Assembly: GCA_025360865.1 (NCBI GenBank)
Contig: JANYBG010000212.1
Location: 1-32,711, forward strand
Direction: 5' to 3'
Source: Pseudomonadota bacterium
GTDB lineage: Bacteria > Pseudomonadota > Gammaproteobacteria > Steroidobacterales > Steroidobacteraceae
DNA: 32,711 nt
Shown: positions 6,677 through 29,067 of the stretch, piece after piece
Layout of the letters: each line of letters opens with the position of its first letter
Numbering within the stretch: position 1 is the first letter of the stretch
Program-made: the position numbers and the translations under genes
Notes under the pieces: model-generated
Databases searched by the model: none
Told to the model about the DNA's origin: nothing
Seen by the model: the letters and a program-made list of their open reading frames with translations, nothing else

Positions 6677-7073
6677 ACCCAGCGACGAGCTGCCTCCGCG
6701 CGTCGACGCGCCGCAGCCGCATCACGTCGAAGCCCACGAGAGAAAGCAGTTAGCGCCCGGGACCGATCTTGTCGGCGCACCCTGGCTTTGATCACGCCGT
6801 GCGCTTCAACCACGGACATGACCGGACCGCGAAGTCGGAAGCGGTCCTGAGGACACTGGGCGCTCAGCTGCGCAGCCCGCGCGACGCTGTGTATGCGGCC
6901 CACCCTGTCAACAACTCATAAGAGGTAGGGCTCACCACCTCGATCCGCGGTGCCGCCCCATCGCGGTGCCGAGAACGGCGAATCGGGTCCTCGCGGACGC
7001 TCTGAATATCATCGGGGCAGTGGCTGAGGAGCCAATGTTCGTCCATCATCTTATGGATAGCCGGAGGATTTCC
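6677..7073. other. Spacer upstream of the RND operon
   Basis: About 400 bases. The region must contain the promoter of the efflux operon, but I cannot point to a convincing one. An in-frame GTG at 6966 lengthens the outer-membrane factor frame by 36 codons; that extension looks non-coding because the lipoprotein signal starts much later. No regulator gene is present. Confidence 0.45.
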
Positions 7074-8612: not shown

Positions 8613-8658
8613 ACGCGAGCGACCGACGCTCCCCGGATACGTTAGCTATGGAGAACCG

Positions 8659-9825: not shown

Positions 9826-9899
9826 TACGACGCAACGCGCGATGCCCCCCGGACGACGGGTCTTGTCGGCGGCACGCCATGGACGACGCACGGGTTGAG

Positions 9900-9919
9900 A
9901 AGGACTGCTAAGGACTGCT
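9900..9919 (+). promoter_or_regulatory. Tandemly duplicated Shine-Dalgarno before the pump gene
   Basis: AAGGACTGCT occurs twice head-to-tail (9900-9909 and 9910-9919), and then G and the ATG of the pump follow. Each copy holds an AAGGA ribosome site; the second has a 6-base spacer. The duplication could raise ribosome loading on the pump relative to the adaptor. Confidence 0.55.
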
Positions 9920-9920
9920 G

Positions 9921-12900: not shown

Positions 12901-13010
12901 TCGGCACGTTCTTCACCCTATTCGTGGTGCCCGCGATGTACATGTTCCTCGGCGCTGAGCACAACAAGGGACAATTGGCGCTTCCGCAGGTCGTGGAGTC
13001 CACCGGATAG
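9921..13010 (+). CDS. RND multidrug efflux pump, HAE1 family (MexI-like)
   Basis: A 1029-residue proton-driven inner-membrane transporter. It starts MNFTDIFIRRPVLATVVSLL, as in MexI/AcrB-type HAE1 pumps, and has the usual length (1020-1050). There is one helix, a large periplasmic porter domain, helices 2-6, a second porter domain and helices 8-12. Proton-relay residues are visible: AIGLVVDDAIIVVEN with Asp400-Asp401 in TM4, and LVGLIAKHGILIVQFAN with Lys922 in TM10. The PPAEDQ-like segment appears as LAPAEDQSFMF. It is transcribed with the outer-membrane factor and adaptor, after a 95-base gap and a duplicated ribosome site. Substrate range cannot be predicted. No local repressor accompanies the operon. 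Confidence 0.95.
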   Translation: MNFTDIFIRRPVLATVVSLLVLVLGLRALVSLPVRQFPKTENATITVTTQYYGASAELVAGFITTPIESSVAEAQGIDYLTSASVTGASTVTAYLRLNYDSNRAQSEISSKVNAVLNQLPTGTQQPVITVQVGEQTAGMYMGFNSETLPTNQITDYVIRVVQPQLQAVPGVQRAQLLGARQYALRAWLDPAKLAAHGVTAANVSTALQSNNYLSALGTTKGQMVSVDLTADTDLHSAEEFKKLVVKQKNGALVRLEDVGTVSLGAEDYESDVAFKGKKSVFIAINVAPEANILSVMEVIRKLFPEIQAQLPAGLHAQIGYDATGYINSAIRDVVKTLLETLIIVTVVIFLFLGSVRSVLIPVIAMPLSLIGAFFIMLTLGYTINLLTLLALVLAIGLVVDDAIIVVENVDRHMKLGQPPREAALYAARELAGPIVAISVVLIAVYIPIGFQGGLTGSLFSEFAFTLAGAVAVSALVALTLSPMMCARFFRMEHAGNNRLVEMIDHNFERFTNLYHRVLRSMLDSWKVVVVFGGIVIALIAVMMAFPLMGVTAKSELAPAEDQSFMFYIGTGSPNASIEQMAGYQAQAFQALSSIPEYDNSFQFAGAGTGSSNSGFGGIILKDYSKRTRNAKEIQLDLQQRASQIAGANIFWINPPSLPGSNGGYPVQFVIQSAAPFPELYEVSQAIVAKAQATGKFYVLDNSLKLDKPQATMVVDRDKVAALGITMKDLGGALSSMLGGGYVNYFSIAGRSYKVIPQVLQRDRLNPDQVANYYIPTASGGVVPASTVVSFKTQTVPESITHFQRLNSATIQGVYGGTQGEALGMLHKIAAETMPQGYTIDYGGESRQFMQESGGFLATLSFAIIIIFLVLAAQFESFRDPLVVMMSVPMAIFGAVVFLFLGFATLNVYTQVGLVTLVGLIAKHGILIVQFANEQQLEGRSKRDAIEAAATIRLRPILMTTAAMVFGVVPLLIATGAGAVGRNHMGLVIFTGVTIGTFFTLFVVPAMYMFLGAEHNKGQLALPQVVESTG

Positions 13011-16132: not shown

Positions 16133-16676
16133 CGGTACGAAATACCCAAGGGCGATGGTCGCTGGGGCGGCTCCGCGGTGATCGAAACGCCGCAAGCCTT
16201 GAATCCCGCGGTCCGACTCCGCAATACCAGCGAGCTGGAACATCGGCCCCGATGGTCTGACGCAGCGGCTGGCCATCGCCTGCCTAGGCAAGCTGGTGCG
16301 CCGTCGACCGCTATGAGAAGCCGGCCCGTGCGCTGCCGAGCGGACGGCGTGGCGCCAGTCACCAGCATGGGCGTTCTTGGGCAAAGACGGTGGGGAAGTC
16401 GTTCCGTCGTCATGACGGCGCCAACCACCTAACGCACGCCGGAGGCCGTCCTATTCCGCGTCGACTGACCGTGCGCTGACTGCGGAAACGATCTGTCCGA
16501 TCAGAATACCGACGCTGACCACAATTTCAATGGCTACGAGTTCCATGGGCCAAACAATGGGGGCCGAAAGCTGATATTCAAGCTCGTGCGCGCTGGCACC
16601 ACGCGCGGCCCAGGAACTCCCGATAGCGGGGGCGCTTATCATGGCGAATCGCCGATTGCCGCACCGCGCCGTGCGC
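16133..16676. other. Gene-poor spacer
   Basis: About 540 bases between an MDR gene and a convergent aldehyde dehydrogenase end. A minus-strand frame at 16451-16642 ends in a hydrophobic stretch (IEIVVSVGILIGQIV) but lacks a ribosome site and has third codon positions poorer in GC than neighbouring genes. It is possibly a decayed remnant. No terminator with T-run was found. Confidence 0.4.
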
Positions 16677-18071
16677 CTACGGCGCCAGCATCTGGTCGAC
16701 GAAGTCGAGCCCTTCCTTCGGGAACGGCGGGTACATCATGGGGGCACCCTTCTTTACATCGAGCGCATCCTCGACCACGGCGCGGGCATTGGAGAATTCG
16801 ATGAAGCCGGCCTGACCGCCCAGCCGGCCAATGCCACTGTGATTCGAGCCCCCGAACGGCAGTGACTGGATATTGGCCTGCACCACGGCGTTGTTGATTG
16901 CGCTCGTGCCGGCGCGGGTGTGATCGAGAAACCAGTCCGCCGCTGCGCGCTCCTGCGTGAAGATGTAGATAGCGAGAGGCTTGGGGCGTTTCGCGATTTC
17001 GGCAATCACCTGCTCGCGACTCGTAAAGCCCTGCACGAACAGCACCGGGCCGAACACCTCTTCGTCGAAAATAGCCATCGCGGGCGTGACGCCGAGCAGG
17101 ATGGTAGGTGATACAAAGCGGGAGGCGGGGTCGGCCTGCCCGCCCATCACGAGCGTCGCGCCCTTGGAGACCGCGTCGTCGATCAGCGCCTTGATCCGCC
17201 GGACATGGCGATCGTTGACGATCCGAGCCAGATCGGGGGACGCGGCGAAGCCCTCCCCCTTGGGATCGTAGAAGGCCCGAATCTTCTCCTGAAGGTGGCC
17301 AAGGAAGCGGGCCTTGACACTATTGTGAACCAGAATGTAGTCGGGGCTGAGGCACACCTGGCCGGAGATGATGTGGCGCGCGAAGGCGAGTTTCGCCGCG
17401 GCGTCCTCAAGATCGGCACTTGCATCGATCACGGCCGGGTTCTTGCCGCCCATCTCGAGCGTGACACTGGCGAAGTTCTGGGCCGCCGCTTCCATGATGA
17501 GCCGACCGATGCGGTTATTGCCCACGTAGCAGATGTGATCGAAGGGAAGTTTGAGTAGCGCCTCGGCGACTTCAGGCCCACCGGTGATCACGGCGACTTC
17601 CTCGCCCAGGCCGGCGCGCTCGATCACTTGCCGCACGAGCTCCGCAGACAGCGGCGCGACTTCCGAGGGTTTGAGCACGACGGCGTTGCCCGCCGCGATC
17701 ATGCTGATCACCGGAGACAGACTGATCAGGACCGGTGAATTCCAGGTTGCGAGGTGCAGTACTAGGCCTTTCGGCTCGTAATGAACATAGGCGTGACGAC
17801 CGAGCAGGCTTGGAACCGACTCGACATCCAGGCGCCTCATCCAGCCGGCGAGACGCTCACAGGCGTGAGACATCTCCGCCTTCAAAGGCAGGAGCGAGAG
17901 TCTTCCGTCCATGCCGAGTTCGGCATCCCCCGCGAGCCCGATCTCGCCCCGAAGGTCGTAGACGGCCCGGTATAGGCGCCGGATCTTGTCGACGCGCTCC
18001 GCGGTGGTCGAGCGCGCGATGCCCGCGCAACGCTGGAGAAGTTGCTCGAATACCTGGCGATAGTCCTGCAT
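16677..18071 (-). CDS. Aldehyde dehydrogenase, coniferyl-aldehyde-dehydrogenase-like
   Basis: A 464-residue member of the aldehyde dehydrogenase superfamily, closer in style to the class-3/coniferyl aldehyde dehydrogenase group than to the enzyme at 13108. The N-terminus is short, with LATWNSPVLISLSPVISMIAAGN in parts where others have TPWNxP. Glu206 in LEMGGKNPAV is the general base and Cys240 in SGQVCLSPDYIL the nucleophile. EEVFGPVLFV and LPFGGSNHSGIGRLGG follow. The C-terminal tail is hydrophobic (MMYPPFPKEG), as is common in this group. I prefer ATG 18071 over the upstream TTG 18113. It is divergent from the carbamoylase operon, and the 232 bases between them hold a 15-bp operator, so it may belong to that regulon. 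It is a candidate oxidiser of an amino- or guanidino-aldehyde, by inference only. Confidence 0.9.
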   Translation of the reverse strand: MQDYRQVFEQLLQRCAGIARSTTAERVDKIRRLYRAVYDLRGEIGLAGDAELGMDGRLSLLPLKAEMSHACERLAGWMRRLDVESVPSLLGRHAYVHYEPKGLVLHLATWNSPVLISLSPVISMIAAGNAVVLKPSEVAPLSAELVRQVIERAGLGEEVAVITGGPEVAEALLKLPFDHICYVGNNRIGRLIMEAAAQNFASVTLEMGGKNPAVIDASADLEDAAAKLAFARHIISGQVCLSPDYILVHNSVKARFLGHLQEKIRAFYDPKGEGFAASPDLARIVNDRHVRRIKALIDDAVSKGATLVMGGQADPASRFVSPTILLGVTPAMAIFDEEVFGPVLFVQGFTSREQVIAEIAKRPKPLAIYIFTQERAAADWFLDHTRAGTSAINNAVVQANIQSLPFGGSNHSGIGRLGGQAGFIEFSNARAVVEDALDVKKGAPMMYPPFPKEGLDFVDQMLAP

Positions 18072-18090
18072 CAGTGAACTCTCACAGCCG

Positions 18091-18107
18091 GTCCGGGCGA
18101 TCCGGAC
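18091..18107. promoter_or_regulatory. Inverted repeat upstream of aldehyde dehydrogenase
   Basis: GTCCGG-N5-CCGGAC, a perfect 6-bp inverted repeat, is centred about 28 bases upstream of the ATG at 18071. It differs from the GTTAAY operator, so it could bind a second regulator or form a hairpin in the mRNA leader. It is short and could be chance in GC-rich DNA. Confidence 0.3.
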
Positions 18108-18240
18108 TTCCAAGGATGATCTGTTTCATATCATATGCGTCACCTACGTGTGAACCCGCCGGCAGAACCGGCAACGCCGGCTCGCGAAGGCCTCTTCCCC
18201 CAGCCTCCCGTGTCTTGCAGCGCATTACGCGATCCGGTGC

Positions 18241-18269
18241 TTGCATGACCTCTTCGGCGCAGTTAACTT
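18241..18269 (+). promoter_or_regulatory. Candidate promoter of the carbamoylase operon
   Basis: TTGCAT (18241-18246), 17 bases, then TAACTT (18264-18269) is a moderate sigma-70 match. The -10 element lies inside the inverted repeat at 18262-18276, so a protein bound there would block RNA polymerase. Confidence 0.4.
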
Positions 18270-18276
18270 GATTAAC
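18262..18276. promoter_or_regulatory. Operator copy 1, GTTAAC-TTG-ATTAAC
   Basis: A 6-3-6 inverted repeat (one mismatch between the arms) 27 bases upstream of the carbamoylase ATG and 190 upstream of the divergent aldehyde dehydrogenase. It shares the GTTAAY-N3-ATTAAC pattern with the sites at 24493 and 25506, near the local TetR gene. It is AT-rich in a GC-rich neighbourhood. Probably the site of the TetR regulator at 24738-25394. Confidence 0.7.
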
Positions 18277-18303
18277 AATTTACGCGAGGTTGAACAGGAA
18301 AGC

Positions 18304-19548
18304 ATGACAGCCCTGCCTTCTGCCATCCGCATCCGGTCGGAACGGCTTTGGGACAGCCTCATGCGGATGGCCCAGATCGGCGCGACGGTCAAGGGAGGCT
18401 GCAACCGGCAGGCGCTGACGGTCGAAGACCGCGCGGGCCGCGATCTGTTTGCCGGCTGGGCTCGCGATGCTGGGTGCGCGGTGTCTGTTGATGAGATCGG
18501 TAACATATTCGCGGTGCGTGCCGGCACTGATGCGAATGCTGATCCCGTGCTTGTGGGCAGCCATCTGGACACGCAGGCGACGGGCGGCCGATTCGATGGT
18601 GTCTACGGCGTCCTGGCGGGACTTGAAGTGGTTCGGACTCTTAACGAAAGCTGCTTTGAGACGCGACGTCCGGTCGAAGTCGCCAGCTGGACCAATGAAG
18701 AGGGCTGCCGATTTGCGCCCGCGATGCTAGGTTCGGGCGTCATGGCCGGCGTCTACACGCTCGACTTCGCCTACAGCCGCATGGACAAGGACGGCGTTAG
18801 CCTGATTGAGGCGTTGAATCGCTCCGGTTACAAAGGTTCCGTCGCCGCGCGCCGGCGACCACTGAAGGCGGCGTTCGAGGTGCATATCGAGCAGGGACCC
18901 ATCCTTGAGGCTCTCGGCAAAACCGTCGGAGTGGTGACCGGCATCCAAGGAGCGTACTGGCTGGATGTGATTCTCGAGGGTATCGCCGCTCACGCGGGAC
19001 CGACGCCAATGGAAATGCGCCAAGACCCGTGGCGCGCGGGCTGCCCGATTATTGACAGAGCCTTCGGCCTCGCGAAGCAGCATGCCCCATGGGGTCGCGC
19101 GACGATCGGCGACGTGCGTGCCTATCCCGGGTCCCGCAACACAGTGCCCGAACGGCTGGTACTGAGCGTGGACCTGCGCCATCCGGATCGTGACACTCTG
19201 GAGTCCATGACGGCAGCCTTCCGCGCCGCAGTCGACTCGATCGCGAAAGAAACCGCCATCCCGGCCAAGGTCGAGCAAGTGTGGCACATGCCGCCGACAC
19301 AGTTTGACGCGCACGTGATCGAGCTCGTGGCGAAGGCCGCGCAGCAACTCGGCTACAGCTGGCACCGCATGGTCAGCGGTGCAGGCCATGACTCCCTGCA
19401 CACGGCTCAATTCGCCCCGACAGCCATGATCTTCGTGCCCTGCGCAGGAGGCTTGAGCCACAATGAGGTGGAGCTCGCGACGGCGGCCGATCTGGCCGCC
19501 GGGGCCAATGTACTGCTGCATGCCGTGGCCGCTGCCGCCAACGAATGA
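18304..19548 (+). CDS. M20-family N-carbamoyl-L-amino-acid hydrolase / allantoate amidohydrolase-like
   Basis: A 414-residue binuclear-metal amidohydrolase of the group with L-carbamoylase (HyuC), beta-ureidopropionase and allantoate amidohydrolase, which split a ureido group into amine, CO2 and ammonia. Metal-site motifs are GSHLDTQATGGRFDGVYG (His87, Asp98), WTNEEGCRF (Glu132/Glu133), EVHIEQGP and LSHNEVE. The lid-domain signature AAHAGPTPM and the substrate-side SGAGHDS are present. Length matches carbamoylases (about 410). ATG 18304 is chosen because AGGAA sits 5 bases before it; an earlier ATG at 18241 would place the operator inside the gene. It is first in an operon with the guanidino enzyme 29 bases downstream. 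It plausibly removes the carbamoyl group produced by that enzyme. By eye I cannot decide among the three activities. Confidence 0.9.
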   Translation: MTALPSAIRIRSERLWDSLMRMAQIGATVKGGCNRQALTVEDRAGRDLFAGWARDAGCAVSVDEIGNIFAVRAGTDANADPVLVGSHLDTQATGGRFDGVYGVLAGLEVVRTLNESCFETRRPVEVASWTNEEGCRFAPAMLGSGVMAGVYTLDFAYSRMDKDGVSLIEALNRSGYKGSVAARRRPLKAAFEVHIEQGPILEALGKTVGVVTGIQGAYWLDVILEGIAAHAGPTPMEMRQDPWRAGCPIIDRAFGLAKQHAPWGRATIGDVRAYPGSRNTVPERLVLSVDLRHPDRDTLESMTAAFRAAVDSIAKETAIPAKVEQVWHMPPTQFDAHVIELVAKAAQQLGYSWHRMVSGAGHDSLHTAQFAPTAMIFVPCAGGLSHNEVELATAADLAAGANVLLHAVAAAANE

Positions 19549-19577
19549 ACTGACCTTTAAGTGAACTGAGAAGGCCT

Positions 19578-20489
19578 ATGCAACTGCGTACGCGAGTTCC
19601 GGGCGGGGGCACCCCCACTGCCAGTCGCTGGGGAATCGACAGCGAGTACGGTCGCTTGCGCGACGTACTGATCGGACCCATTGACCACTACACTTGGCAA
19701 GCCAAGAGCAACGCGGTGGCTGCGCGGTCGATGCGCGTGGGGCTGAAATTTGATCGCGAAGTGGCGCTGGCGCAGTACGAAGAAATGATAGCCGCCTACG
19801 GCCAGGCCGGCGTCGCCGTGCACCGGCTGCCAGCCCAGGAGGGCCTCCCCTACCAGCTGTTCGCGCGCGACAGCAGCGTGATGACGCCCTGGGGAGCGGT
19901 GATCACGCAGCTCACCAAGTCCTACCGACGTGGTGAATACGCGGCCTGCCTGCGCTTCTACCTGGAGGCCGAGATTCCGATCTACGACCTGGTTACGTGC
20001 GGCAACCTTGAAGGCGGCGACTTCATGGTGCTGCAGCCGGGGGTGGCCCTGTGCGGCTTTTCAGGTGACCGCTCGATCGAGCCAGCCGTGCGAGAAGTTG
20101 GCGCCTGGCTCAAGGCCGAGGGATGGGAATTCAAGACCTACGCCTACGACCCGTACTTCCTGCATCTCGATGTGCAGATGAGCATGCTCGCGGAGGGACT
20201 CGCGGCGGTGTGTGTCGAGGCAGTCGAGCCGGAACTGGTCACGTGGCTGAAGTCCAAGCGCATCCGTATTCTTGAGGTCTCGTACCACGAGGCGATGAAT
20301 ATGGGCTGCAACTTGGTCTCGTTGGGTGCGGAACGGGTGCTGATACCCGCGTCCAATCGTGACCTGATCGAGCGCTGCCGCTCCGAGGGGCTGACAGTGT
20401 TTGACCCGGACGTTTCCATGATCGCCAATGGCGGCGGTTCAATTCACTGTATGTGTCAGGCGCTTCGGCGCGACCCGGTGCAGCGCTGA
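19578..20489 (+). CDS. Guanidino-group-modifying enzyme (DDAH/arginine deiminase/amidinotransferase superfamily)
   Basis: A 303-residue beta/alpha-propeller (pentein) enzyme. Members use a Cys nucleophile on a guanidinium carbon to deiminate, remove an alkylamine, or transfer an amidino group. Visible active-site residues are Asp98 in FARDSSV, Glu145 and Asp148 in NLEGGDF, His196 in FLHLDVQ and Cys291 in GGGSIHCMCQ. This is the order expected for the Cys-His-Glu/Asp arrangement, with Asp residues gripping the guanidinium. Length fits the DDAH/ADI-like group (about 250-420). It sits between the carbamoylase (29-base gap) and the sulfotransferase (37-base overlap), clearly one transcript. Deimination would yield a ureido compound, the natural substrate class of the upstream carbamoylase; that coupling is inference. 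A transferase or dimethylamine-releasing activity remains possible. Confidence 0.85.
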   Translation: MQLRTRVPGGGTPTASRWGIDSEYGRLRDVLIGPIDHYTWQAKSNAVAARSMRVGLKFDREVALAQYEEMIAAYGQAGVAVHRLPAQEGLPYQLFARDSSVMTPWGAVITQLTKSYRRGEYAACLRFYLEAEIPIYDLVTCGNLEGGDFMVLQPGVALCGFSGDRSIEPAVREVGAWLKAEGWEFKTYAYDPYFLHLDVQMSMLAEGLAAVCVEAVEPELVTWLKSKRIRILEVSYHEAMNMGCNLVSLGAERVLIPASNRDLIERCRSEGLTVFDPDVSMIANGGGSIHCMCQALRRDPVQR

Positions 20490-21913
20490 ACACTCCCGCA
20501 CTTAAGCAAGCGCGGCCTTCCGCGGCCGGGGCCATCGTTGCGCTGCGGCAGTCTGTACGCTTGGCGCTGCGCCAACGCGACCTTGCCGCGGCCGGGGCCG
20601 CAGTGTGGGAACTCGCGAGACTTCAGGCCGAGTCAGCCGGCCTGCCGGCTGCGCGCGCGCAGGCGGAAGCAGAAATTGGAGATTTCTGGTCACTGTTGGG
20701 AGACCCGGCGGCCGCCTATCGCTGCTATTCGCGCGCGTCAGACCTGGCACCCTCAGAGCCGCGCTATTGGTTCAATCGGGCGACGGCCGCCTGTCACGTG
20801 GGGGAGCTCGAGGCGGCCGAGGCAGCCTACGACCAAGTTATCTCACTGCGTGCCGATGACGCGCAGGCCTACCTCAATCGGTCCGAGCTTCGCGTACAGA
20901 CGGCCGCCGCCAACCACGTCGCCGAGCTGGAGAGGGAACTGGCGCGATCCCCCGGAGACTGGCGCCACAAGGTTCCCCTGCTGTACGCGCTGGCAAAGGA
21001 GTACGAGGACGTGGGTGAATACGCCCGCTCTTGGCAGTGCCTTTCGGCCGGCGCGCGGCTGCGCAGACGCCATCTGCAGTACGACCCGCGGATCGACCGC
21101 GCCACGGTCGATTGGATCAGGGAATCGTTCCCCGCCGGCTCCGCGGCCGTCGCCGGCGAGACAAGCGGCGAGCCGATATTCATTCTGGGAATGCCGCGCA
21201 CCGGATCCACGCTCGTCGACCGGATTCTCGGCTCACACCACACGGTGTTCAGCGCCGGGGAACTGCCGGATTTCGGCGCCGCCGTCGTGGCAGGCGTCCA
21301 GCGGGCCCGGGGAAGCGCCACCGGGCGTCGTGAGCTCATCGTCGGATCCGCCCAGCTCGATACCGCAGCTCTCGGTCGCGACTACCTACGACGCACCCGG
21401 CCGCGCACAGGGCACACGCCCCACTTCACCGACAAGCTGCCGCTCAACTATCTGTACATCGGACTGATCGCGCGGGCGTTGCCCCAGGCGCGCATCGTTC
21501 ACGTCACGCGCGGCCCGCTGGCGAGCTGTTATGCGATGTACAAGGTGCTGTTCGACCGCGGCTACCCGTTCTCCTATGACCTTAACGAACTGGGCGACTA
21601 TTACATGGCGTATCGGCGTCTCATGAACCACTGGCACGACACGCTACCGGGACGCATCATCGAGGTGGCATACGAGCGTCTAGTGGCCGATCTTCCGGGC
21701 GAGGCTCGTTCACTTTTTGAACGTCTGGGCTTGCCCTGGGAAGCCCACTGCCTCGCCTTCAATGAAAACCCGTCACCGGTCACCACCGCGAGCGCCGCTC
21801 AGGTACGACGGCCGTTGTACACGGGCGCAGTTGCCGCATGGCGGCAATACGCGCCCGAACTGGCTCCCCTGGCGCAACGTCTTCGCGAGGGTGGCATAGC
21901 TCCCGAGCGTTGA
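20453..21913 (+). CDS. TPR-containing sulfotransferase
   Basis: A 486-residue fusion. Residues about 30-205 are helical, with TPR-like units such as AAAYRCYSRASDLAPSEPRY and LEAAEAAYDQVISLRADDAQ. The C-terminal half is a PAPS-dependent sulfotransferase. The 5'-phosphosulfate loop is FILGMPRTGSTLVDRILGS (about 243-261), and the 3'-phosphate segment is RIVHVTRGPLASCYAMYK. FTDKLPLNY and EVAYERLV are usual for the Sulfotransfer_3 type. The GTG start lies inside the preceding gene, two bases after the start of its Met292 codon, giving a 37-base overlap and probable translational coupling. A sulfuryl-transfer step in a catabolic operon is unexpected. The acceptor could be a peptide, a lipid or the pathway substrate. 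TPR-sulfotransferases of this type often lie near TonB receptors in my recollection, as here. Confidence 0.85.
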   Translation: MSGASARPGAALNTPALKQARPSAAGAIVALRQSVRLALRQRDLAAAGAAVWELARLQAESAGLPAARAQAEAEIGDFWSLLGDPAAAYRCYSRASDLAPSEPRYWFNRATAACHVGELEAAEAAYDQVISLRADDAQAYLNRSELRVQTAAANHVAELERELARSPGDWRHKVPLLYALAKEYEDVGEYARSWQCLSAGARLRRRHLQYDPRIDRATVDWIRESFPAGSAAVAGETSGEPIFILGMPRTGSTLVDRILGSHHTVFSAGELPDFGAAVVAGVQRARGSATGRRELIVGSAQLDTAALGRDYLRRTRPRTGHTPHFTDKLPLNYLYIGLIARALPQARIVHVTRGPLASCYAMYKVLFDRGYPFSYDLNELGDYYMAYRRLMNHWHDTLPGRIIEVAYERLVADLPGEARSLFERLGLPWEAHCLAFNENPSPVTTASAAQVRRPLYTGAVAAWRQYAPELAPLAQRLREGGIAPER

Positions 21914-21955
21914 GGACAGCCCGCCGACCGAAGGCACACATCCGCTTCGCGAAGG

Positions 21956-24415
21956 TCAGTGCTCGTTGTACGAGTAGCTCAGGGTCAGACCCACCGTGCG
22001 CGGTCGCGAAACCAAGGCCTGGTAATACTGACCCCACTGCACCGGGTCGGTGTAGGAATTCACGCCCAACTGGTTCGTGAGGTTGTCCACGTAAACCGTG
22101 GTCACCCAGTGCGGCAGAGAGTAGCCGATGCGGGCACCCACGAGCGTGTACCCAGGCGGGGCCGGTATGGTCGCCGAAAGCGCTGGGAGGAGCGAGCTGC
22201 GGTAGTAGGCGTTGACGGCAAAGCGCAGGTCACCGCTACCGATAGGAACGTGTCCGTACTCGATCGAGACAGTCGCGGTGCTCTTGGGCGTGCCCGGCAG
22301 CGGCGCGCCCAAGGGGGGCGGGGGCACAGTTAAGCCTGCGAGCGCCAATGCGAGGTAGGAAGTGATTTTGGTCTGGTCGTAGGTGTAGTTGAGCTGCACG
22401 GCCAGATGATCGCTCACCCGCGCGAATAGCTCGCTCTCGATACCGCGGCTGTAGGCGTCGCCCACATTGACAGCGCCCGGCAAAGCAAGCGGAGTGAGGA
22501 AGGCGCTTTGCTGCACGTTGTGCCACTGGATATCGTACACGGCCACTGAATAGCGATAGCGGTTGTTCAGCGTCCCCTTGACGCCGATTTCATAGTTGTC
22601 CGCCGTATCGGGACTTACTTTAAATATCGCCGGCGGGGTCACGTAGCCCACGGCCGCCTCGTTTGGCGGCAGTGCGTTCACCGCGCCGCGGCGAAAGCCC
22701 TGAGACCAAGTGGCGTAGGCCAGGTTCAAGTCGCCTATCCGGTATGCTAGGTTGGCCTTCCACAACGCCTTGCGCCAGGAATCGCCAAGGGTCTCGTTGG
22801 CGATGTAGGCAGGTCCGTCAAATAACAGGCCTGTCTGCTGCGACTGCGTGACTGTCTGCCGGAATAACCGCGCCCCCCCCGTCACGCTCCACTGCGGCGC
22901 GAAATGCCAAGTGAACTCGCCGAATGCCGCGAGGTCCGTGTACTTCGTCTGGAAATCGCCGATATAGGCTTGGTCCTTGATGATCGGTATGCCGTCGATA
23001 TAGGTAGGTGGCGCCCCCGGGGTGTACGCCGTCTCACCAATCCCGCATTGCGACGGATTGATCCCGTCGCCGGCGCCATAGACGGGCACACAGGCGTTGT
23101 AGTAATCCAGATATCCGGGATAGAAGTCGTGTTCGCGGATGGTGGTTTTCTCGCTTTTGTAGAAAAGCCCCGCAACCCAGTCGTACGCCCCCCCGGACTT
23201 CGACGCCAGCCTGATTTCCTCCGCCCACGGCCTGTCGGTAAAACCCTGGTCTCCGGTAATGAGTACGCGGGGGTTCTGACCGTAGAGCGAAGCGTAGAAC
23301 GGAAAACTTTCGTACAGCTGCGTCACATCCCCGGCCGCACCATTTCTGTGATCCGCCCAGGAGCTGTTCGAGGTCAGCGTGGCGAACCCAAAGTCGTAAT
23401 CGAGGGTGAGCGCCAAGAGATCGACTTTATCCTCGCTGGTGGCCCTGGTGTAATCGGATGATTGCAGCGAGCTCAGCCCATAGGCCGGTGCGGCATACGG
23501 GTAGCCGTCGGCGCCGGAGGACTGATGGTAATAAGACAGCTGCGCTCGCAGCACATCGCTCGGCTTCCAGAGGGCCGCGACGCGGACCGTGCGGTAGATG
23601 TACGAGTTGGTTCCATCACCTGAGTAGGTCTTGGGTGCACTTAAGAGATTTCCGGACGTCACCGGTATCGGCGCACCCTGTGCGTCGAGCGCGTACAGCT
23701 TAGGTTGGTCAATAAAGCCGGCCTGGCGGGTGTAGCCCGCGTTCAGCCGGATCGCCATGGTTTCCGACAGCGGAATGTTGAGCATGCCGTTGATGTCTTC
23801 GTTCGCGCCATGGCTGTGTGCGGTGGTGCTCAGTCCTGCCTCGGCCTTCGCGTCGAAGGCGGAAGGGTCCGGCGGGTTCTGCACGAACCGAATAGTGCCA
23901 CCGAGCGAACCGGAACCGTACAAGGTGCCCTGCGGCCCGCGCAAGATCTCTACCCGGTCAAGATCCTGAAGGCGGAGGTTGAAGAACAGCGGAGTATCGT
24001 CCAGGTAGATCGCGACCGGCTGTACGATGGGGGAGGACTGGATGAATTCACCCGCCGTAGGATCACTGTTGAGGCCGCGGATAATGAGTGTCGAGCCGTT
24101 GACTCCTCCGAAGGCGCCCTTGTCGGTCACGTTGATGCCTGCGAGGGAATGCCCGAGGTCAACGGTATCCACGATACCGGCACGCTCAAGGGTTGCCCCG
24201 GTGATCGCGGTGATACTCGCAGGGATGCTCTGCGCCGACTCCGAACGGCGTGTCGCGGTCACGATGACTTCCTGCAACCCCTCCTGCGCGACGGTGGCAG
24301 TGCCGTACAGGGCCGCGCACACCGCCAGAGCCACTGGTGATCTTCTGCGATTTATCGCCAGCGCCCTCCCCGTGCGGGCTGACGCTCTTTGCTGCATGCG
24401 CACACTATCGGCCAC
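21956..24415 (-). CDS. TonB-dependent outer-membrane receptor
   Basis: An 819-residue energy-coupled outer-membrane transporter. GTG 24415 is chosen because GGAGGA (rc of 24423-24428) stands 7 bases upstream. Starts further upstream in the frame lack such a site. The signal peptide is RRRSPVALAVCAALYGTATVAQ, in parts. A TonB-box-like LQEVIVTATRR follows, and then the plug domain with SIPASITAITG, LIIRGLNSDP and DRVEILRGPQGTLYGSGSLGG. The rest is a 22-strand barrel with alternating aromatic residues, ending VGLTLSYSYNEH. It resembles the receptor family common in sphingomonads and steroidobacters, not the siderophore type specifically. It is convergent with the sulfotransferase operon and has its own strong promoter and operator. 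It probably imports the substrate of the surrounding enzymes. Confidence 0.93.
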   Translation of the reverse strand: MADSVRMQQRASARTGRALAINRRRSPVALAVCAALYGTATVAQEGLQEVIVTATRRSESAQSIPASITAITGATLERAGIVDTVDLGHSLAGINVTDKGAFGGVNGSTLIIRGLNSDPTAGEFIQSSPIVQPVAIYLDDTPLFFNLRLQDLDRVEILRGPQGTLYGSGSLGGTIRFVQNPPDPSAFDAKAEAGLSTTAHSHGANEDINGMLNIPLSETMAIRLNAGYTRQAGFIDQPKLYALDAQGAPIPVTSGNLLSAPKTYSGDGTNSYIYRTVRVAALWKPSDVLRAQLSYYHQSSGADGYPYAAPAYGLSSLQSSDYTRATSEDKVDLLALTLDYDFGFATLTSNSSWADHRNGAAGDVTQLYESFPFYASLYGQNPRVLITGDQGFTDRPWAEEIRLASKSGGAYDWVAGLFYKSEKTTIREHDFYPGYLDYYNACVPVYGAGDGINPSQCGIGETAYTPGAPPTYIDGIPIIKDQAYIGDFQTKYTDLAAFGEFTWHFAPQWSVTGGARLFRQTVTQSQQTGLLFDGPAYIANETLGDSWRKALWKANLAYRIGDLNLAYATWSQGFRRGAVNALPPNEAAVGYVTPPAIFKVSPDTADNYEIGVKGTLNNRYRYSVAVYDIQWHNVQQSAFLTPLALPGAVNVGDAYSRGIESELFARVSDHLAVQLNYTYDQTKITSYLALALAGLTVPPPPLGAPLPGTPKSTATVSIEYGHVPIGSGDLRFAVNAYYRSSLLPALSATIPAPPGYTLVGARIGYSLPHWVTTVYVDNLTNQLGVNSYTDPVQWGQYYQALVSRPRTVGLTLSYSYNEH

Positions 24416-24492
24416 TTGATGTTCCTCCCCGTGAGAACCCGCCGCCGGCAGGGGTCTTGCGTCGAGCCGCTTCATGTCCGCGCCGCACCAGT

Positions 24493-24509
24493 GGTTAATC
24501 GAATTAACC
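24493..24509. promoter_or_regulatory. Operator copy 2, GGTTAAT-CGA-ATTAACC
   Basis: A perfect 7-3-7 inverted repeat. On the receptor strand it starts 8 bases after the -10 box, so it covers the predicted transcription start, and a bound repressor would block initiation. The core is the same as at 18262 and 25506. A further ATTTAAC half-like sequence at 24518-24524 overlaps the -10. Confidence 0.75.
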
Positions 24510-24517
24510 CACCCGGA

Positions 24518-24546
24518 ATTTAACTACCCCCACGGACGGGTGTCAA
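24518..24546 (-). promoter_or_regulatory. Sigma-70 promoter of the TonB receptor
   Basis: Read on the minus strand: TTGACA (24541-24546, perfect -35), a 17-base spacer, then TTAAAT (24518-24523, 4 of 6). The predicted start is near 24511, at the edge of the operator. The leader before GTG 24415 is about 95 bases. Confidence 0.65.
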
Positions 24547-24737
24547 TGCGACCGGTCGACGCCGAATCGCCGCGCCGCGCCGGCCGCACCAAAAGAACCG
24601 GGTACCCTGAGTTGCGCCCAATCTTAGGGCGGCAGGTGGAGGCGGCGGCTTTCGCGCGCACGATGTTGGCAGTGGCGGCAGTGGGTATCTGCGGGCGCGC
24701 TTCGGCGCACAAGTGCGGCTCACTGCGCGCGCCCGAG

Positions 24738-25394
24738 TTACCGGCGGTGCGCGGCTGGGGCAAGGTGCCGGCGGGCCGTATCCCAGAGCCAGCGCTTCAC
24801 CGCGCGGACCTCCGCCGCGCTTGCGCGACGGGACAACAGGTAGTCGTCCGGAAACACGAGTCGAATCAGTAGTTGCGCCTTCACCAGACGGTAAACGTCG
24901 GAGGCGTCGGTTCGACGGAAGTTTGCCGAACGCACCCCATCTTTCAACAGGCGGCGCAGCCGGGTATGCATGGCTGCAAGGGGTCCACCGACGAAGTTCT
25001 CCTTGAATTCGCCGCCTGCGGCCAGTTTCACGTACTCCATGCCCCCGCCTGGGGTGGCAAAATCCACCAGCGCGAGGCGCGCGTAGGCCGGATTCTCAAT
25101 CATCATGTCTACGAACGCATCGAGGGCTACGCGCAGAGCGTCCACGGGCGAGCGATGCGGGCTGAGCGCAAACTGGCTGGCGAGCAGGCCGATGTAGCGC
25201 CGCGACACCTCGACCAGCACGTCGTCACGGCTCTTGTAATGCTTGTAGATCGCCGGTATCTGTACATTCAGGGGGACGGCGATATCACGCAGGGTGAAAC
25301 CGTAGACACCCTTGACTGCTATAAGGCGCTCAGCCTGGTCGAGGATGCGCTGGCGCGTAGGTGCCATCACGCTGCGAGCGTCGGCCGCAGGCAT
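24738..25394 (-). CDS. TetR/AcrR family transcriptional regulator
   Basis: A 218-residue one-component regulator. The N-terminal helix-turn-helix is clear: QRILDQAERLIAVKGVYGF, then TLRDIAVPLNVQIPAIYKHYKSRDDVL, with recognition helix near residues 36-44. The C-terminal two-thirds is the all-helical ligand-binding and dimer domain, too variable to name a ligand. ATG 25394 is preceded by GGGAGG at 5 bases; the longer frame to 25484 is rejected. It is divergent from the serine hydrolase gene, and the 212 bases between them carry operator copy 3. Likely a repressor of itself, of the hydrolase-permease operon, of the TonB receptor and of the carbamoylase operon, through GTTAAY-N3-ATTAAC sites. The inducer is presumably the substrate or an intermediate. 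Confidence 0.9.
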   Translation of the reverse strand: MPAADARSVMAPTRQRILDQAERLIAVKGVYGFTLRDIAVPLNVQIPAIYKHYKSRDDVLVEVSRRYIGLLASQFALSPHRSPVDALRVALDAFVDMMIENPAYARLALVDFATPGGGMEYVKLAAGGEFKENFVGGPLAAMHTRLRRLLKDGVRSANFRRTDASDVYRLVKAQLLIRLVFPDDYLLSRRASAAEVRAVKRWLWDTARRHLAPAAHRR

Positions 25395-25467
25395 TGGAGC
25401 CTCCCTTCGGTTCAGATGCGTAGGACTGTGGCAGAGTTGAGGCGGACGGACAACTGCCGCAACGCTC

Positions 25468-25496
25468 TTGCCAGTGCGCGCCACCTCGTTTAAGTT
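25468..25496 (+). promoter_or_regulatory. Candidate promoter of the serine hydrolase-permease operon
   Basis: TTGCCA (25468-25473, 5 of 6), 17 bases, then TAAGTT (25491-25496, weak). The operator starts 9 bases after this -10, nearly the same geometry as at the receptor promoter, which supports the assignment. Confidence 0.45.
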
Positions 25497-25505
25497 TTAC
25501 GCTGG

Positions 25506-25520
25506 GTTAATTGCATTAAC
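25506..25520. promoter_or_regulatory. Operator copy 3, GTTAAT-TGC-ATTAAC
   Basis: A perfect 6-3-6 inverted repeat in the divergent region between the TetR gene and the serine hydrolase. It is placed to control both: 111 bases before the TetR ATG and 86 before the hydrolase TTG. It is the autoregulatory site expected of a TetR repressor. Confidence 0.75.
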
Positions 25521-25606
25521 TGAATGGCGAAGGCCGTCCCCGCGAGCTTAGTCGCTGCGCGGCACGCATCCAGTCAGTCACAACACTATCGCACACGGCA
25601 GGTAAC

Positions 25607-26755
25607 TTGACGGCCAAAACTCCCGGGTTCGACCCGCCGCTGGAATTGACTCTCGGCGCCCTGAACAAGGCTCAGTGGGACCAGCCCGCCGCACGCCGCT
25701 GCGGGCTGCGCGCCCTGCATCACTGGCATCGCTACGGCCTGTCCCTGCGGGCGGCGCGGGTGCAGCCGCTTCAAACCTGCATTGATTTCCGCCTGCACGA
25801 CCTGGATACGCTGCGCTGGTATCTCACCCATCCCTTCTTCTCGGGAATCCTGATGCTGCAAGGGAGCAAAGTTGTGCTCGAGCACTATGCTCACGATAGT
25901 GGCCCGGAGGTAGTGCAATCGATCCAGTCAATCACCAAGACCACCGCTCACCTGCTGGCCGGACAACTGGTCGAGGCCGGTGCGCTTGATCCCGCACAGT
26001 CGATTACCCACTACCTTCCGGAGGTCCGCGGCGGCTATGGCCGCGCGAGCGTGCAGGACGCACTCGACATGGCGGTCGTCAACGACTACTCGGAAGACTT
26101 CTACGACCCCGGAGCGAGCGTAGGCAAGCTCGAAGAGACGCACGGCTGGCGCCTGCCCGAGACTGAACCACCCGTCGATATCCGCACGTTCCTCAGGCGC
26201 ATCGGAGGGGCCGCCTCGCCCCCGCCCGTGCGCCAGCTGCACTACAAGAGTGCCAATACGGACGTCATCGCCTGGATCTGCGAACGGGTGGCCCAGCGCT
26301 CGCTGCGGGAGACCTACCTGGATCTGGTCGAAGCCTTCGGACCGGAAGGCACCGTTTACTTGTCGACCGATCGGCTGGGGACACCCTTCGTCGGCGGCGG
26401 CTTGCATATGACCCTGCGGGACCTGGGTCGCTACGGGTTGCTGCTCGCCCGTGGCGGCCAGAGTGGCGGCAGGTCGCTCGGCAGCAAGATGTTCCGCGAC
26501 GCGACCCGCGCGCAGGCTGAGCTCGGTACGCCAAGCCTTCTCGGTCGCGGGTTCTATCGCAACTTTCTCGAAACCGACGGAACTTGGCTCGGACACAATG
26601 GCTACGGTGGGCAGTGGCTGATGGTGTTCCCGGAGTCTGAAATGGTAATCGCCTGCTTCAGTGCGATCAGCGATGACGGCGGACTGGACTGGCGGTTTAT
26701 CCGCCGACTGGCCGACCTTGGCGAACACTTGGCTGCGCTGGTGCTACGGGGTTGA
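25607..26755 (+). CDS. Serine hydrolase, beta-lactamase/NylB-like fold
   Basis: A 382-residue penicillin-binding-protein-like serine hydrolase. The nucleophile motif is Ser108-Ile-Thr-Lys111 (QSITK), the Tyr motif YKSANTD (Tyr213, Ser215, Asn217), and the third motif probably GHNGYGGQ. VVNDYSEDFYDPGAS resembles the segment around the second Tyr of 6-aminohexanoate-dimer hydrolase (NylB) and relatives. An amidase or esterase is therefore more likely than a beta-lactamase. I see no signal peptide, so it appears cytoplasmic. TTG start at 25607 with CAGGT nearby; no better start exists in frame before residue 83. The stop is 2 bases before the permease start, so the two are co-translated. Role inferred: release of an amide-linked part of the imported compound. 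Confidence 0.85.
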   Translation: MTAKTPGFDPPLELTLGALNKAQWDQPAARRCGLRALHHWHRYGLSLRAARVQPLQTCIDFRLHDLDTLRWYLTHPFFSGILMLQGSKVVLEHYAHDSGPEVVQSIQSITKTTAHLLAGQLVEAGALDPAQSITHYLPEVRGGYGRASVQDALDMAVVNDYSEDFYDPGASVGKLEETHGWRLPETEPPVDIRTFLRRIGGAASPPPVRQLHYKSANTDVIAWICERVAQRSLRETYLDLVEAFGPEGTVYLSTDRLGTPFVGGGLHMTLRDLGRYGLLLARGGQSGGRSLGSKMFRDATRAQAELGTPSLLGRGFYRNFLETDGTWLGHNGYGGQWLMVFPESEMVIACFSAISDDGGLDWRFIRRLADLGEHLAALVLRG

Positions 26756-26757
26756 GG

Positions 26758-28194
26758 GTGGCAATCGAACACAAATCCATCGATTACGTGGCCGAGCACG
26801 AGAGGCATGGGCGCGTCATTGATCAGGCGCCGTTTTGGTTTCTCGGAAACTTTCACTTCTTCACGATCGCGATCGGGTTCGTCGGTCCCACCATGGGGCT
26901 GAGCTTCGGCTATACCGCACTGGCCGGCGCGCTGGGAATCCTCTTTGGCACGATCTTCGTCGCCTTCCACGCCTCCCAGGGTGCCGAGCTCGGTCTTCCT
27001 CAGATGATCCAGTCGCGGGCGCAGTTCGGTTACCGCGGCGTGGTCGTTGTACTGATCGGAACTCTGTTCACGTTTGTGGGCTTTAACGTCGCCGATTCGG
27101 TTTTAATGGCGCACGGCCTGAATGGGATACTCGGCTGGAATGAAATCGCAGTGATCATGGTCGCCGCAGTTATGGCGACCGCGATCGCGATATACGGGCA
27201 CGACTGGCTGCACCGGATTTTTCGGTGGTGTTTCTGGCTCTGCCTGCCCCTCTACACCGGGCTTACATTGGCGATTTACACCGGTCACGTGCCCGCAACT
27301 CACTTTGTGCCGGGCGGCTTCAGCTGGGTGGCGTTGGTGGCGCAGTTCTCAGCGAGCGCGGCCTACAACATCACCTATGCTCCCTCCGTTTCCGACTATT
27401 CGCGCTATCTGCCGCGCACTTCTCGTCCGCTCCACATCATCGCGGCCGTGTTTCTGGGAGCGTCGTCCGCGGCGATCTGGTTGATTTCACTTGGTGCGTG
27501 GCTCGCCACGCGCATCGGTGCCTCAGACGGGCTAGTCGCGCTTCACGACGCGGGCAACGCCCTGATTCCCGGCTTCGGGGTTGTGATGTCCCTGGCATCC
27601 GTCGTAGCGCTCGTGGCGACCATGGGTCTGAACGCTTACAGCGGAATGCTAACCATCTTAACGGCGGCGAATTCCCTGTTTGACACTCGCCCGACGCCGC
27701 GCCTGCGGATGATTGCGATCTTGGCGATTGCGGCAAGCTGGGTAGCGCTAACCTTCGCGATCACTACGAACGCGATTGCGCTTCTGTTTGCGACACTAAC
27801 CATCATGCTGTACCTGCTAGTCCCGTGGACATCCGTGAACCTCGTCGATTATTTCTTCGTGCGTCGCGGCCGATACGCGATCACACATCTTTTTAGGCCG
27901 GACGGCATCTACCGGGCTTGGGGAAGACGGGGATTGATCGCTTACGTCGTTGGATTCCTGGCCACGTTGCCCTTTTTTGTGCTGCCCGATGTCTACACAG
28001 GCCCGGCAGCGCGGTTGCTCAACGGGGTGGACGTCGGTTGGCTCGTGGGCCTAGTCGTGTCCGGCGGCGTCTATTTTGCACTCAGCCGCGGATTCAAGAT
28101 TGCGGCCGAGAGCGGTGCTATTCAGGAAAGTGACCGGTACCTCAATCGCGTCGGCACTAAGCGTGACCGCAGGGAGCCCTGCAATGGCTGTTGA
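26758..28194 (+). CDS. NCS1 family nucleobase/hydantoin:cation symporter
   Basis: A 478-residue inner-membrane permease of the nucleobase:cation symporter-1 family (cytosine, purine, allantoin and hydantoin carriers), with about 12 hydrophobic segments. Family features are the N-terminal FWFLGNFHFFTIAIGFVGP, QMIQSRAQFGYRG, SASAAYNITYAPSVSDYSRYLP and a late TSVNLVDYFFVRRGRY. GTG 26758 has GGGG 6 bases upstream; TTG 26752 would overlap the previous stop (TTGA). Hydantoin-type members elsewhere pair with L-carbamoylases, which fits the M20 enzyme in this regulon. No hydantoinase or dihydropyrimidinase is present in the window, so an acyclic ureido or guanidino substrate should also be considered. 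The stop overlaps the SOUL gene start by 11 bases. Confidence 0.9.
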   Translation: MAIEHKSIDYVAEHERHGRVIDQAPFWFLGNFHFFTIAIGFVGPTMGLSFGYTALAGALGILFGTIFVAFHASQGAELGLPQMIQSRAQFGYRGVVVVLIGTLFTFVGFNVADSVLMAHGLNGILGWNEIAVIMVAAVMATAIAIYGHDWLHRIFRWCFWLCLPLYTGLTLAIYTGHVPATHFVPGGFSWVALVAQFSASAAYNITYAPSVSDYSRYLPRTSRPLHIIAAVFLGASSAAIWLISLGAWLATRIGASDGLVALHDAGNALIPGFGVVMSLASVVALVATMGLNAYSGMLTILTAANSLFDTRPTPRLRMIAILAIAASWVALTFAITTNAIALLFATLTIMLYLLVPWTSVNLVDYFFVRRGRYAITHLFRPDGIYRAWGRRGLIAYVVGFLATLPFFVLPDVYTGPAARLLNGVDVGWLVGLVVSGGVYFALSRGFKIAAESGAIQESDRYLNRVGTKRDRREPCNGC

Positions 28195-28741
28195 GGAACC
28201 CGCTTTTAAAGCAGTTCTGCACGATGGCAATTTCGAGATTCGCGACTATCCGGCCCTTGTTGTCGCCGAGGTCACCGTGGCCGGTGGACAGAAGAAAGCT
28301 GCCATTCAGGGTTTTCGTTTGCTCGCCCGTTACATCTTTGGCGCCAACAAGCAACGGGAGAGCATCGCCATGACGGCGCCGGTGGCGCAGGCACCGAGCA
28401 GCGACAGCATTTCGCTAACCGTGCCTGTCACTCAGATCGCGAACGCTAGGAATTGGATCGTCCGATTCACTATGCCTAGCGCCTATACGTTCGATACTCT
28501 GCCAGAGCCTACCGATCCCAAGGTCCAATTGAGACGTCTGCCGGCGGAACGCGTCGCCGTTATCCGTTTTTCGGGATTGGCACAGAAAGGCAAGGTGAAT
28601 GCGAAAGTCACTGAACTGGTCGCCAACCTCGACGCTCATCATCTGCGCGCTATTGGTCCCGTGTCCCTTGCCCAATACAACCCGCCTTGGACGCTATGGT
28701 TCATGAGGCGGAATGAAGTGATGATCCGCGTAGGGCCTTGA
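28184..28741 (+). CDS. SOUL family heme-binding protein
   Basis: A 185-residue protein of the SOUL/HBP family. Typical blocks are FEIRDYPALVVAEVTV at the start, then KAAIQGFRLLARYIFGANK, IAMTAPVAQ, FTMPSAYTFDTLPEP, VAVIRFSGLA and, at the end, YNPPWTLWFMRRNEV. Members bind heme or other tetrapyrroles; the physiological role in bacteria is unclear. ATG 28184 has GGGAG upstream and overlaps the NCS1 gene by 11 bases. A longer frame from 28076 would run inside the permease gene and is rejected. It may be transcribed with the permease, but the family is widespread and the link to the catabolic regulon may be accidental. Confidence 0.9.
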   Translation: MAVEEPAFKAVLHDGNFEIRDYPALVVAEVTVAGGQKKAAIQGFRLLARYIFGANKQRESIAMTAPVAQAPSSDSISLTVPVTQIANARNWIVRFTMPSAYTFDTLPEPTDPKVQLRRLPAERVAVIRFSGLAQKGKVNAKVTELVANLDAHHLRAIGPVSLAQYNPPWTLWFMRRNEVMIRVGP

Positions 28742-29067
28742 CGCCGCATGGTCCCCGCCGCCGCGCCAGGGCTTCACCACGTACCTCCCGGGCGCCCTAT
28801 AGCACGCGTAGGTGTTGATGCCAGTGCGCGAGGCACCGACCGAACCGGAGACTCCGGCTGTACCGACTCCTACGAATCCCCCGCTTCTCGCCTGTATATA
28901 GTTGCGTCCCGTAGCGGATCCGAGCCTCGCTACGTAAGGGCCTCGCTGTAGGCGGTGGCCTACCCGTGTTCAGGGACAAGTCGCACCGACAGCGCTGGGG
29001 CGGTCGGGTTACTCTTAAGCTCGAGCGTAGGGTCCAACGCTGCGCACACAGTCTTTAGGGGAAAACA
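28742..29067. other. Gene-free spacer
   Basis: About 325 bases. Short frames here (for example 28748-28951) have unlikely composition. It should contain the promoter of the DUF1328 gene; I see no good consensus. No hairpin with T-run follows the SOUL stop. Confidence 0.4.

Follow-up and report, generated by a model that had tools for sequence, protein, structure and literature searches.

Three conserved 15-bp palindromes as candidate operators of a local TetR regulon, possibly for guanidino-compound uptake and breakdown

The gene cluster and its three palindromes

The window analyzed here, the whole stretch of 32,711 nucleotides of contig JANYBG010000212.1 (GenBank assembly GCA_025360865.1, a gammaproteobacterium of the Steroidobacteraceae), carries three 15-bp palindromes in a cluster of uptake and breakdown genes that also encodes a TetR-family regulator. 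A first-pass annotation of the sequence had proposed that these palindromes are the operators of the linked TetR and define a local regulon. This reading is supported by our analysis: the palindromes are conserved beside TetR orthologs, they are confined to the cluster in their own genome at up to one mismatch, and a proven TetR protein with the same half-sites exists; hence, we consider it very probable that they are bound by this TetR. The cluster comprises:

18262..18276, no strand: proposed operator 1, GTTAACTTGATTAAC, 28 bp ahead of the M20 start; shares bases with the -10 box of the best-scoring (weak) promoter
18304..19548, + strand: M20-family hydantoinase/carbamoylase-type amidohydrolase; NF006769 (allantoate amidohydrolase) 587.5 bits, cut-off 452
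19578..20489, + strand: DDAH/arginine-deiminase-like guanidino-group-modifying enzyme (pentein); PF19420 67 bits (cut-off 23), PF02274 56.1 bits (cut-off 22.8)
20453..21913, + strand: TPR-sulfotransferase, third gene of the putative operon; Sulfotransfer_3, 1.1e-42
21956..24415, - strand: TonB-dependent receptor; GTG start at 24415 picked by eye, after GGGGAGG
24494..24508, no strand: proposed operator 2, upstream of the TonB-dependent receptor; begins 8 bp past the -10 box
24517..24546, - strand: putative TonB receptor promoter, TTGACA-18-TAAATT, just ahead of operator 2; equaled at this offset by 0 of 500 shuffles
24738..25394, - strand: TetR-family regulator, the proposed repressor, 218 aa; TetR_N 7.9e-10; best PDB match 3vpr, 3e-9
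25468..25496, + strand: putative promoter facing the serine hydrolase/NCS1 pair, TTGCCA-17-TAAGTT; operator 3 begins 9 bp after it; 1 of 500 shuffles as good
25506..25520, no strand: proposed operator 3, in the divergent TetR/serine hydrolase region
25607..26755, + strand: serine hydrolase of the beta-lactamase fold family; TTG start
26752..28194, + strand: NCS1-family cation symporter (Transp_cyt_pur), by family profile

The M20 amidohydrolase, the DDAH-like enzyme and the TPR-sulfotransferase form a putative operon, while the serine hydrolase and NCS1 genes are a pair divergent from TetR. The TetR protein has the characteristic N-terminal helix-turn-helix (PF00440 TetR_N, 38.8 bits, cut-off 24) and its match to PF17938, a C-terminal ligand domain, scores 23.8 bits, under the cut-off of 26.2. 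The M20 protein scores 427.6 bits against TIGR01879, the M20 hydantoinase/carbamoylase family (cut-off 204), and its best PDB matches include the deacylase 5thw in first place (9.3e-140) and the N-carbamoyl-beta-alanine amidohydrolase 8c46 (7.7e-124).

All three palindromes are exactly where the first-pass annotation had placed them. They are intergenic, as it held, provided that the M20 gene starts at the ATG at 18304 (after AGGAAA, chosen by eye); a mechanically called open reading frame with a TTG start from 18241 would cover site 1. Each lies upstream of a gene of the block: site 1 of the M20 gene, site 2 of the TonB receptor gene, and site 3 in the region between TetR and the serine hydrolase. 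The earlier consensus GTTAAY-N3-ATTAAC does match the sites, though the symmetric GTTAAY-N3-RTTAAC describes them better, and the half-site at 3528 is not the only other one in the window, with a second GTTAAC at 6326.

With up to two mismatches on both strands, the window holds seven matches, compared with a mean of 0.59 and a maximum of three in 100 shuffles. When the whole assembly (3,814,095 bp in 257 contigs, 96.4% complete) was scanned with GTTAAYNNNATTAAC at up to one mismatch, the three window sites were the only matches, and the many random copies elsewhere that would speak against a regulon were not found in this genome at that threshold. The raw count is by itself no argument, since a reversed control pattern is as frequent; the argument lies instead in the clustering of all three sites, upstream of genes, within 7.3 kb and in their conservation.

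Conservation of the operator with the TetR gene

TetR orthologs (51 to 76% identity) were detected in 7 of 196 relatives (own genome included), in 19 of 396 genomes drawn from the order and in one of 369 drawn from the class (the own genome only); the named genomes gave seven TetR loci, one of which is a remote 29% match without a site. After dropping duplicates and this remote match, 22 TetR loci were kept, the window among them. The related named genomes are metagenome-assembled, with some loci cut by contig ends, and gene content at the loci was established by tblastn with projected starts, the crude gene caller having missed genes.

At 16 of these 22 loci, the 350 bp ahead of TetR contain the symmetric motif with no more than one mismatch, as the first-pass annotation would lead one to expect. 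The best match to GTTAAYNNNRTTAAC in this interval has no mismatch at 13 loci, one at three and two at four, with none at up to two mismatches at the remaining two. Over the complete 22 loci (362,785 bp), we found 19 exact and 11 one-mismatch sites, 30 in all, against 0 exact and 3 one-mismatch sites for the reversed pattern. All 30 but one, in genome G387, fall in the interval from 350 bp before to 60 bp past the projected start of a cluster gene. Only the three-base spacer is enriched: each of the other spacers from 0 to 10 yields 0 exact and 0 to 3 one-mismatch sites. One relative (G044) keeps all three operator positions, including a 15-mer identical to operator 1 at its M20 start, the projected start falling 11 bp inside the 15-mer; another (G343) retains the same three gene associations in a changed order. 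Even loci that share little with the window beyond TetR itself (G400 and bog1223) still carry the site.

The same association is seen at the level of genomes. Of those drawn from the order, 13 of the 19 with TetR have an exact site, in 12 cases at the TetR locus, as opposed to 78 of the 377 without it (Fisher p 1.9e-5); within the window's genus the figures are 3 of 3 and 0 of 38 (p 9.4e-5), both p-values being merely indicative because related genomes are not independent. Conversely, M20/DDAH loci from three genomes without a TetR hit (G051, G005 and G407) have no site at up to two mismatches in stretches of 11.6 to 19.9 kb. Thus, the motif follows the TetR gene and not the enzyme genes.

The best computed evidence on the identity of the binder comes from a single clade. 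Of the six loci at which the motif has two mismatches or no match, four (in G063, G384, G388 and G394) share a variant operator, GTGAAATTGATTAAC, with 0, 0, 1 and 1 mismatches, respectively; they form one clade of the TetR tree with 100/100 support, and they alone have the sequence DVIVPLRM or DVIGPLRM (DVI[VG]PLRM) in the TetR helix-turn-helix. As operator and helix-turn-helix change together in this clade, TetR is probably the protein that binds the site.

The placement of the operators relative to predicted promoters was evaluated with a weight-matrix scan. A site counted if the distance from a -10 box to the start of the operator was 6 to 13 bp and no more than 25 of 500 shuffles scored as high. 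This geometry is present at 18 of 25 gene-facing sites, including both tested sites of the window, versus 1 of 16 in the TetR direction. In a simple consensus scan of 16600-28800, the putative TonB receptor promoter is the only sigma-70-like match (one, versus a shuffle average of 2.6). At the M20 sites (G000, G044 and G343), the best -10 box lies inside the operator, with scores of 5.9, 8.8 and 4.7, two of the three being weak. An operator placed just past or over a predicted -10 box suits repression.

Exact copies of the operator are also present on other contigs of three TetR genomes (G275, G400 and G401), each at a TonB receptor gene and two of them divergent from an amidase:

L127:5360-5374, L128:5132-5146 and L129:3628-3642: distal exact copies of the operator in three TetR genomes

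We considered and set aside a wide unlinked regulon, as these distal sites lack the promoter geometry and the unlinked ureohydrolase of G387 and DDAH of G353 have no sites at up to two mismatches; the upstream side of the unlinked ureohydrolase of G115 is cut by a contig end.

Several of the observations weigh against the assignment of the operators to TetR. In the own genome, the reversed control pattern has four forward and three reverse matches at up to one mismatch, making the raw count of the motif unremarkable, and at up to two mismatches the wider pattern has 56 forward matches versus 70 for its control. Exact matches are found in the 78 genomes of the order draw without TetR; at least 13 genomes outside the TetR set have a stray exact match, GTTAATCATGTTAAC or its complement, which in the one case inspected (G133, L125:3415-3429) lies within rpoD, beside dnaG, and the stray match in G085 is within a SRAP gene. 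The TetR of G387, on a long branch, has no site within 350 bp, the exact site of this genome lying away from its TetR locus, and that of G316 has only a two-mismatch site. Unlinked enzyme copies in TetR genomes, namely the DDAH on contig 39 of G353 and the ureohydrolase on contig 378 of G387, have no site at up to two mismatches; judged by their sites, some copies of these enzymes lie outside the control of the regulator. Finally, 7 of 25 gene-facing sites are without the promoter geometry, G400 scores poorly and barely passes, and the choice of the offset window followed a look at a preliminary scan, which is why the TetR direction serves as the fair control.

Enzymes, substrate and proposed mechanism

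The enzymes under the proposed operators suggest a common chemical theme. In the DDAH-like enzyme, E145, H196 and C291, together with D98 and D198, are invariant in 15 of 15 aligned sequences and align with the Pseudomonas aeruginosa DDAH; going by the roles of the corresponding residues in that protein, we take the first three to be catalytic. The enzyme is distant from the solved dimethylargininases and arginine deiminases, and its scores fall short of the respective equivalog models (77.2 of 300 and 34.8 of 489.1 bits). It has the motifs FARD and HLD and thereby keeps both aspartates. According to the portion of the CtlX report drawn on here (PMC9007349), guanidino-acting members likewise keep both (FTRD, HLD), whereas the citrullinase CtlX has asparagines. 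An M20 gene is adjacent to the DDAH gene at 10 of 15 DDAH loci.

Across the 22 TetR loci, nine have the DDAH-like enzyme, seven an arginase-family ureohydrolase and six neither in the fetched stretch, with none having both:

L075, L070, L072, L026, L027, L071 and L049, and 18304-20489 of the window: TetR loci with a ureohydrolase or DDAH-like enzyme

For the ureohydrolase of G400, the best PDB matches are 3-guanidinopropionase (2.2e-83) and guanidinobutyrase (4.9e-72), and those of G033, G039, G417 and G316 share 74 to 81% identity with it. At the locus of G417, the genes near the ureohydrolase include orthologs of the permease (82%), the TonB receptor (75%) and the sulfotransferase (54%), and in the tree its TetR falls among those of deiminase loci. 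An amidase neighbors DDAH in three genomes (G386, bog1223 and G353) and is found near the ureohydrolase of G115 and, at 30% identity, that of G387. The mutual exclusion of the two enzymes is claimed for the TetR loci only, since it fails genome-wide: both are encoded on other contigs of G387, and weaker ureohydrolase homologs (39 to 46%) exist elsewhere in G044, G353 and G384. Urease was rejected as the reason for the swap, its alpha subunit being present in 2 of 20 genomes (G401 and G387), neither of which has a ureohydrolase at the TetR locus.

As the deiminase and carbamoylase on the one hand and the ureohydrolase on the other would both end at an amino acid, the common denominator would be a guanidino group, most simply that of a guanidino acid. 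Acids of different chain length, such as guanidinoacetate or 3-guanidinopropionate, would fit. Taken jointly, the claim that the palindromes are TetR operators and that they serve a substrate-induced regulon for guanidino-compound uptake and breakdown seems to us reasonably probable. We infer binding, repression, inducer, substrate and the order of the reactions from the computed features, and advance the following mechanism. Briefly, in the absence of inducer, a TetR dimer would sit on each 15-bp site and keep RNA polymerase out, the sites being positioned near the predicted transcription start at the TonB receptor and serine hydrolase/NCS1 genes, and over the -10 box at the M20 operon. The substrate, most likely a guanidino compound and probably a guanidino acid, would be imported via the TonB receptor and the NCS1 permease. 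This substrate or one of its breakdown products might then bind the C-terminal domain of TetR, whereupon the repressor would leave and the uptake and breakdown genes would come on together. The DDAH-like enzyme would deiminate the guanidino acid to a ureido acid, which the M20 carbamoylase would in turn cleave to an amino acid, CO2 and ammonia.

The most serious alternative accepts the regulon but gives it a substrate without a guanidino group: the permease, the M20 enzyme and the deiminase-like enzyme would instead handle a hydantoin, ureide or pyrimidine-type compound. Enzymes of the M20 carbamoylase family and NCS1 transporters typically serve in the breakdown of hydantoin, allantoin and pyrimidines, with NCS1 members being known for nucleobases and hydantoins, and the best family names of the window's M20 enzyme are allantoate amidohydrolase and deacylase. 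A gene of the broad amidohydrolase superfamily lies at 1884-3404, about 15 kb away. The guanidino reading itself has weak points: the PDB comparison covers one of the seven ureohydrolases (that of G400), two others, in G232 (45%) and, split into two pieces, in Osedax Rs1 (37 and 30%), have diverged from it, and the serine hydrolase and sulfotransferase are left unexplained by the proposed pathway. Against a non-guanidino substrate, none of the genes beside the three sites was assigned to a ring-opening enzyme of this kind in the profile search, the enzyme that takes the place of the deiminase in relatives is an arginase-family ureohydrolase, and the DDAH-like enzyme retains the aspartates of guanidino-acting members. 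On balance, we deem a non-guanidino substrate unlikely, while giving it more weight than any of the other alternatives.

It is very improbable that another transcription factor, encoded elsewhere, binds the sites and that TetR is in the cluster by coincidence. The exact motifs in genomes without TetR would fit such a factor, and binding by TetR is here deduced; but the site is kept at the loci of G400 and bog1223, it is missing from the fetched stretches of three enzyme loci that lack TetR, and it co-varies with the TetR helix-turn-helix. We assign a similarly low probability to TetR being an activator, or controlling its own divergent promoter only: some TetR proteins do activate, and in the TetR direction the promoter signal is seen at the tested offset in only 1 of 16 cases, but an operator downstream of or over the -10 box is suited to repression, and the window, G044 and G343 all have the same site ahead of their TonB receptor and M20 genes. 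That the sites are chance AT-rich palindromes, as their being no commoner genome-wide than the reversed control might suggest, is already contradicted by the conservation data (all three in one 7.3-kb cluster, 30 versus 3 control matches at orthologous loci, one spacing only) and can practically be dismissed.

The preferred reading, a TetR-controlled and substrate-induced regulon for a guanidino compound, is of a known, ordinary kind; its new parts are the guanidino-acid reading, the enzyme swap and the operon content. In its fullest form, it would be a guanidino-acid scavenging system with a dedicated TonB receptor, in which a deiminase plus carbamoylase and a one-step ureohydrolase have been swapped under one regulator and operator, and this we offer tentatively, at rather less than an even chance. 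If true, guanidino acids would have a deiminase route, a second way of breaking such compounds down, and the regulator could serve as a guanidino-acid sensor. The analysis also supplies, for an uncharacterized TetR group known here mostly from metagenome-assembled Gammaproteobacteria, a proposed operator and regulon together with a few candidate inducers, and it suggests a possible cargo for some TonB receptors and NCS1 permeases.

As to the surroundings, an aldehyde dehydrogenase gene (16677-18071) was rejected as a member of the cluster, as it points away from operator 1 at a distance of 191 bp and the flank fetched for G044 did not contain it. The TPR-sulfotransferase is also encoded at the TetR loci of G044, G394, G384, G388, G353 and G417. 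Elsewhere in the window are an RND efflux set (6966-13010) of an outer membrane channel, an HlyD-type adaptor and an AcrB-type pump, and an integrase-core (rve) gene, probably of a transposase, near the contig end (31639-32607). Searches for Rfam families and tRNA genes found none in the window.

Comparison with known systems

No TetR regulon for guanidino acids is described in the titles and abstract openings of the papers listed, a part of the matches, from literature that covers few subscription journals. Among regulators of nitrogen-compound breakdown, RutR, which governs pyrimidine utilization, is also TetR-type, but its operator is unlike the one here and the window's TetR reaches only 22.1 bits against the RutR family model (cut-off 368). 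On the enzyme side, GbuA and GpuA, the guanidinobutyrase and guanidinopropionase of Pseudomonas aeruginosa, are the counterparts of the arginase-family ureohydrolase at 7 of the 22 TetR loci, of which the one in G400 has them as its nearest PDB matches; unlike them, the window has a deiminase-like and carbamoylase pair, and its regulator is TetR-type whereas GpuR is LysR-type. The proposed two-step logic, with guanidino deimination followed by carbamoyl hydrolysis, would be the same as that of agmatine deiminase (AguA) and N-carbamoylputrescine amidase (AguB), though that route uses AguA and a nitrilase-type AguB where the window has a DDAH-like pentein and an M20 enzyme. The putative citrullinase CtlX is, like the window enzyme, a distant relative of arginine deiminase, and differs in having asparagines, as far as the part of its report used here goes (PMC9007349), where the window enzyme has aspartates.

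With regard to the regulator, the part of the literature on the model TetR drawn on here gives an operator of 15 bp and describes TetR genes beside divergent targets as common (PMC4482099). The TetR/tetO pair of Escherichia coli thus shares with the present system a TetR_N helix-turn-helix and a 15-bp palindrome. It differs in that the window protein matches the NCBIfam tetracycline model at only 22.7 bits (cut-off 265), over residues 13-62 alone, and in that the targets here are catabolic and uptake genes. The closest precedents for the operator itself are mycobacterial. BkaR is a proven TetR repressor that binds as a dimer to a 16-bp core, GTTA(N)T(N4)A(N)TAAC, and PccD of Mycolicibacterium protects a stretch with GTTAAT-N4-ATTAAC, in the sections of their reports considered here (PMC3920632 and PMC11596240, respectively). 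Both are TetR repressors with the same GTTAAT/ATTAAC half-sites as in the window, but their spacer is of four bases rather than three (the N4 site is found at up to one mismatch at 0 of 22 loci), and their targets belong to branched-chain keto-acid and propionyl-CoA metabolism rather than to uptake and breakdown of the present kind, the likeness to BkaR considered here being that of the operator half-sites. These shared half-sites strengthen the reading of the palindromes as TetR operators and, by the same token, lower the novelty of the operator.

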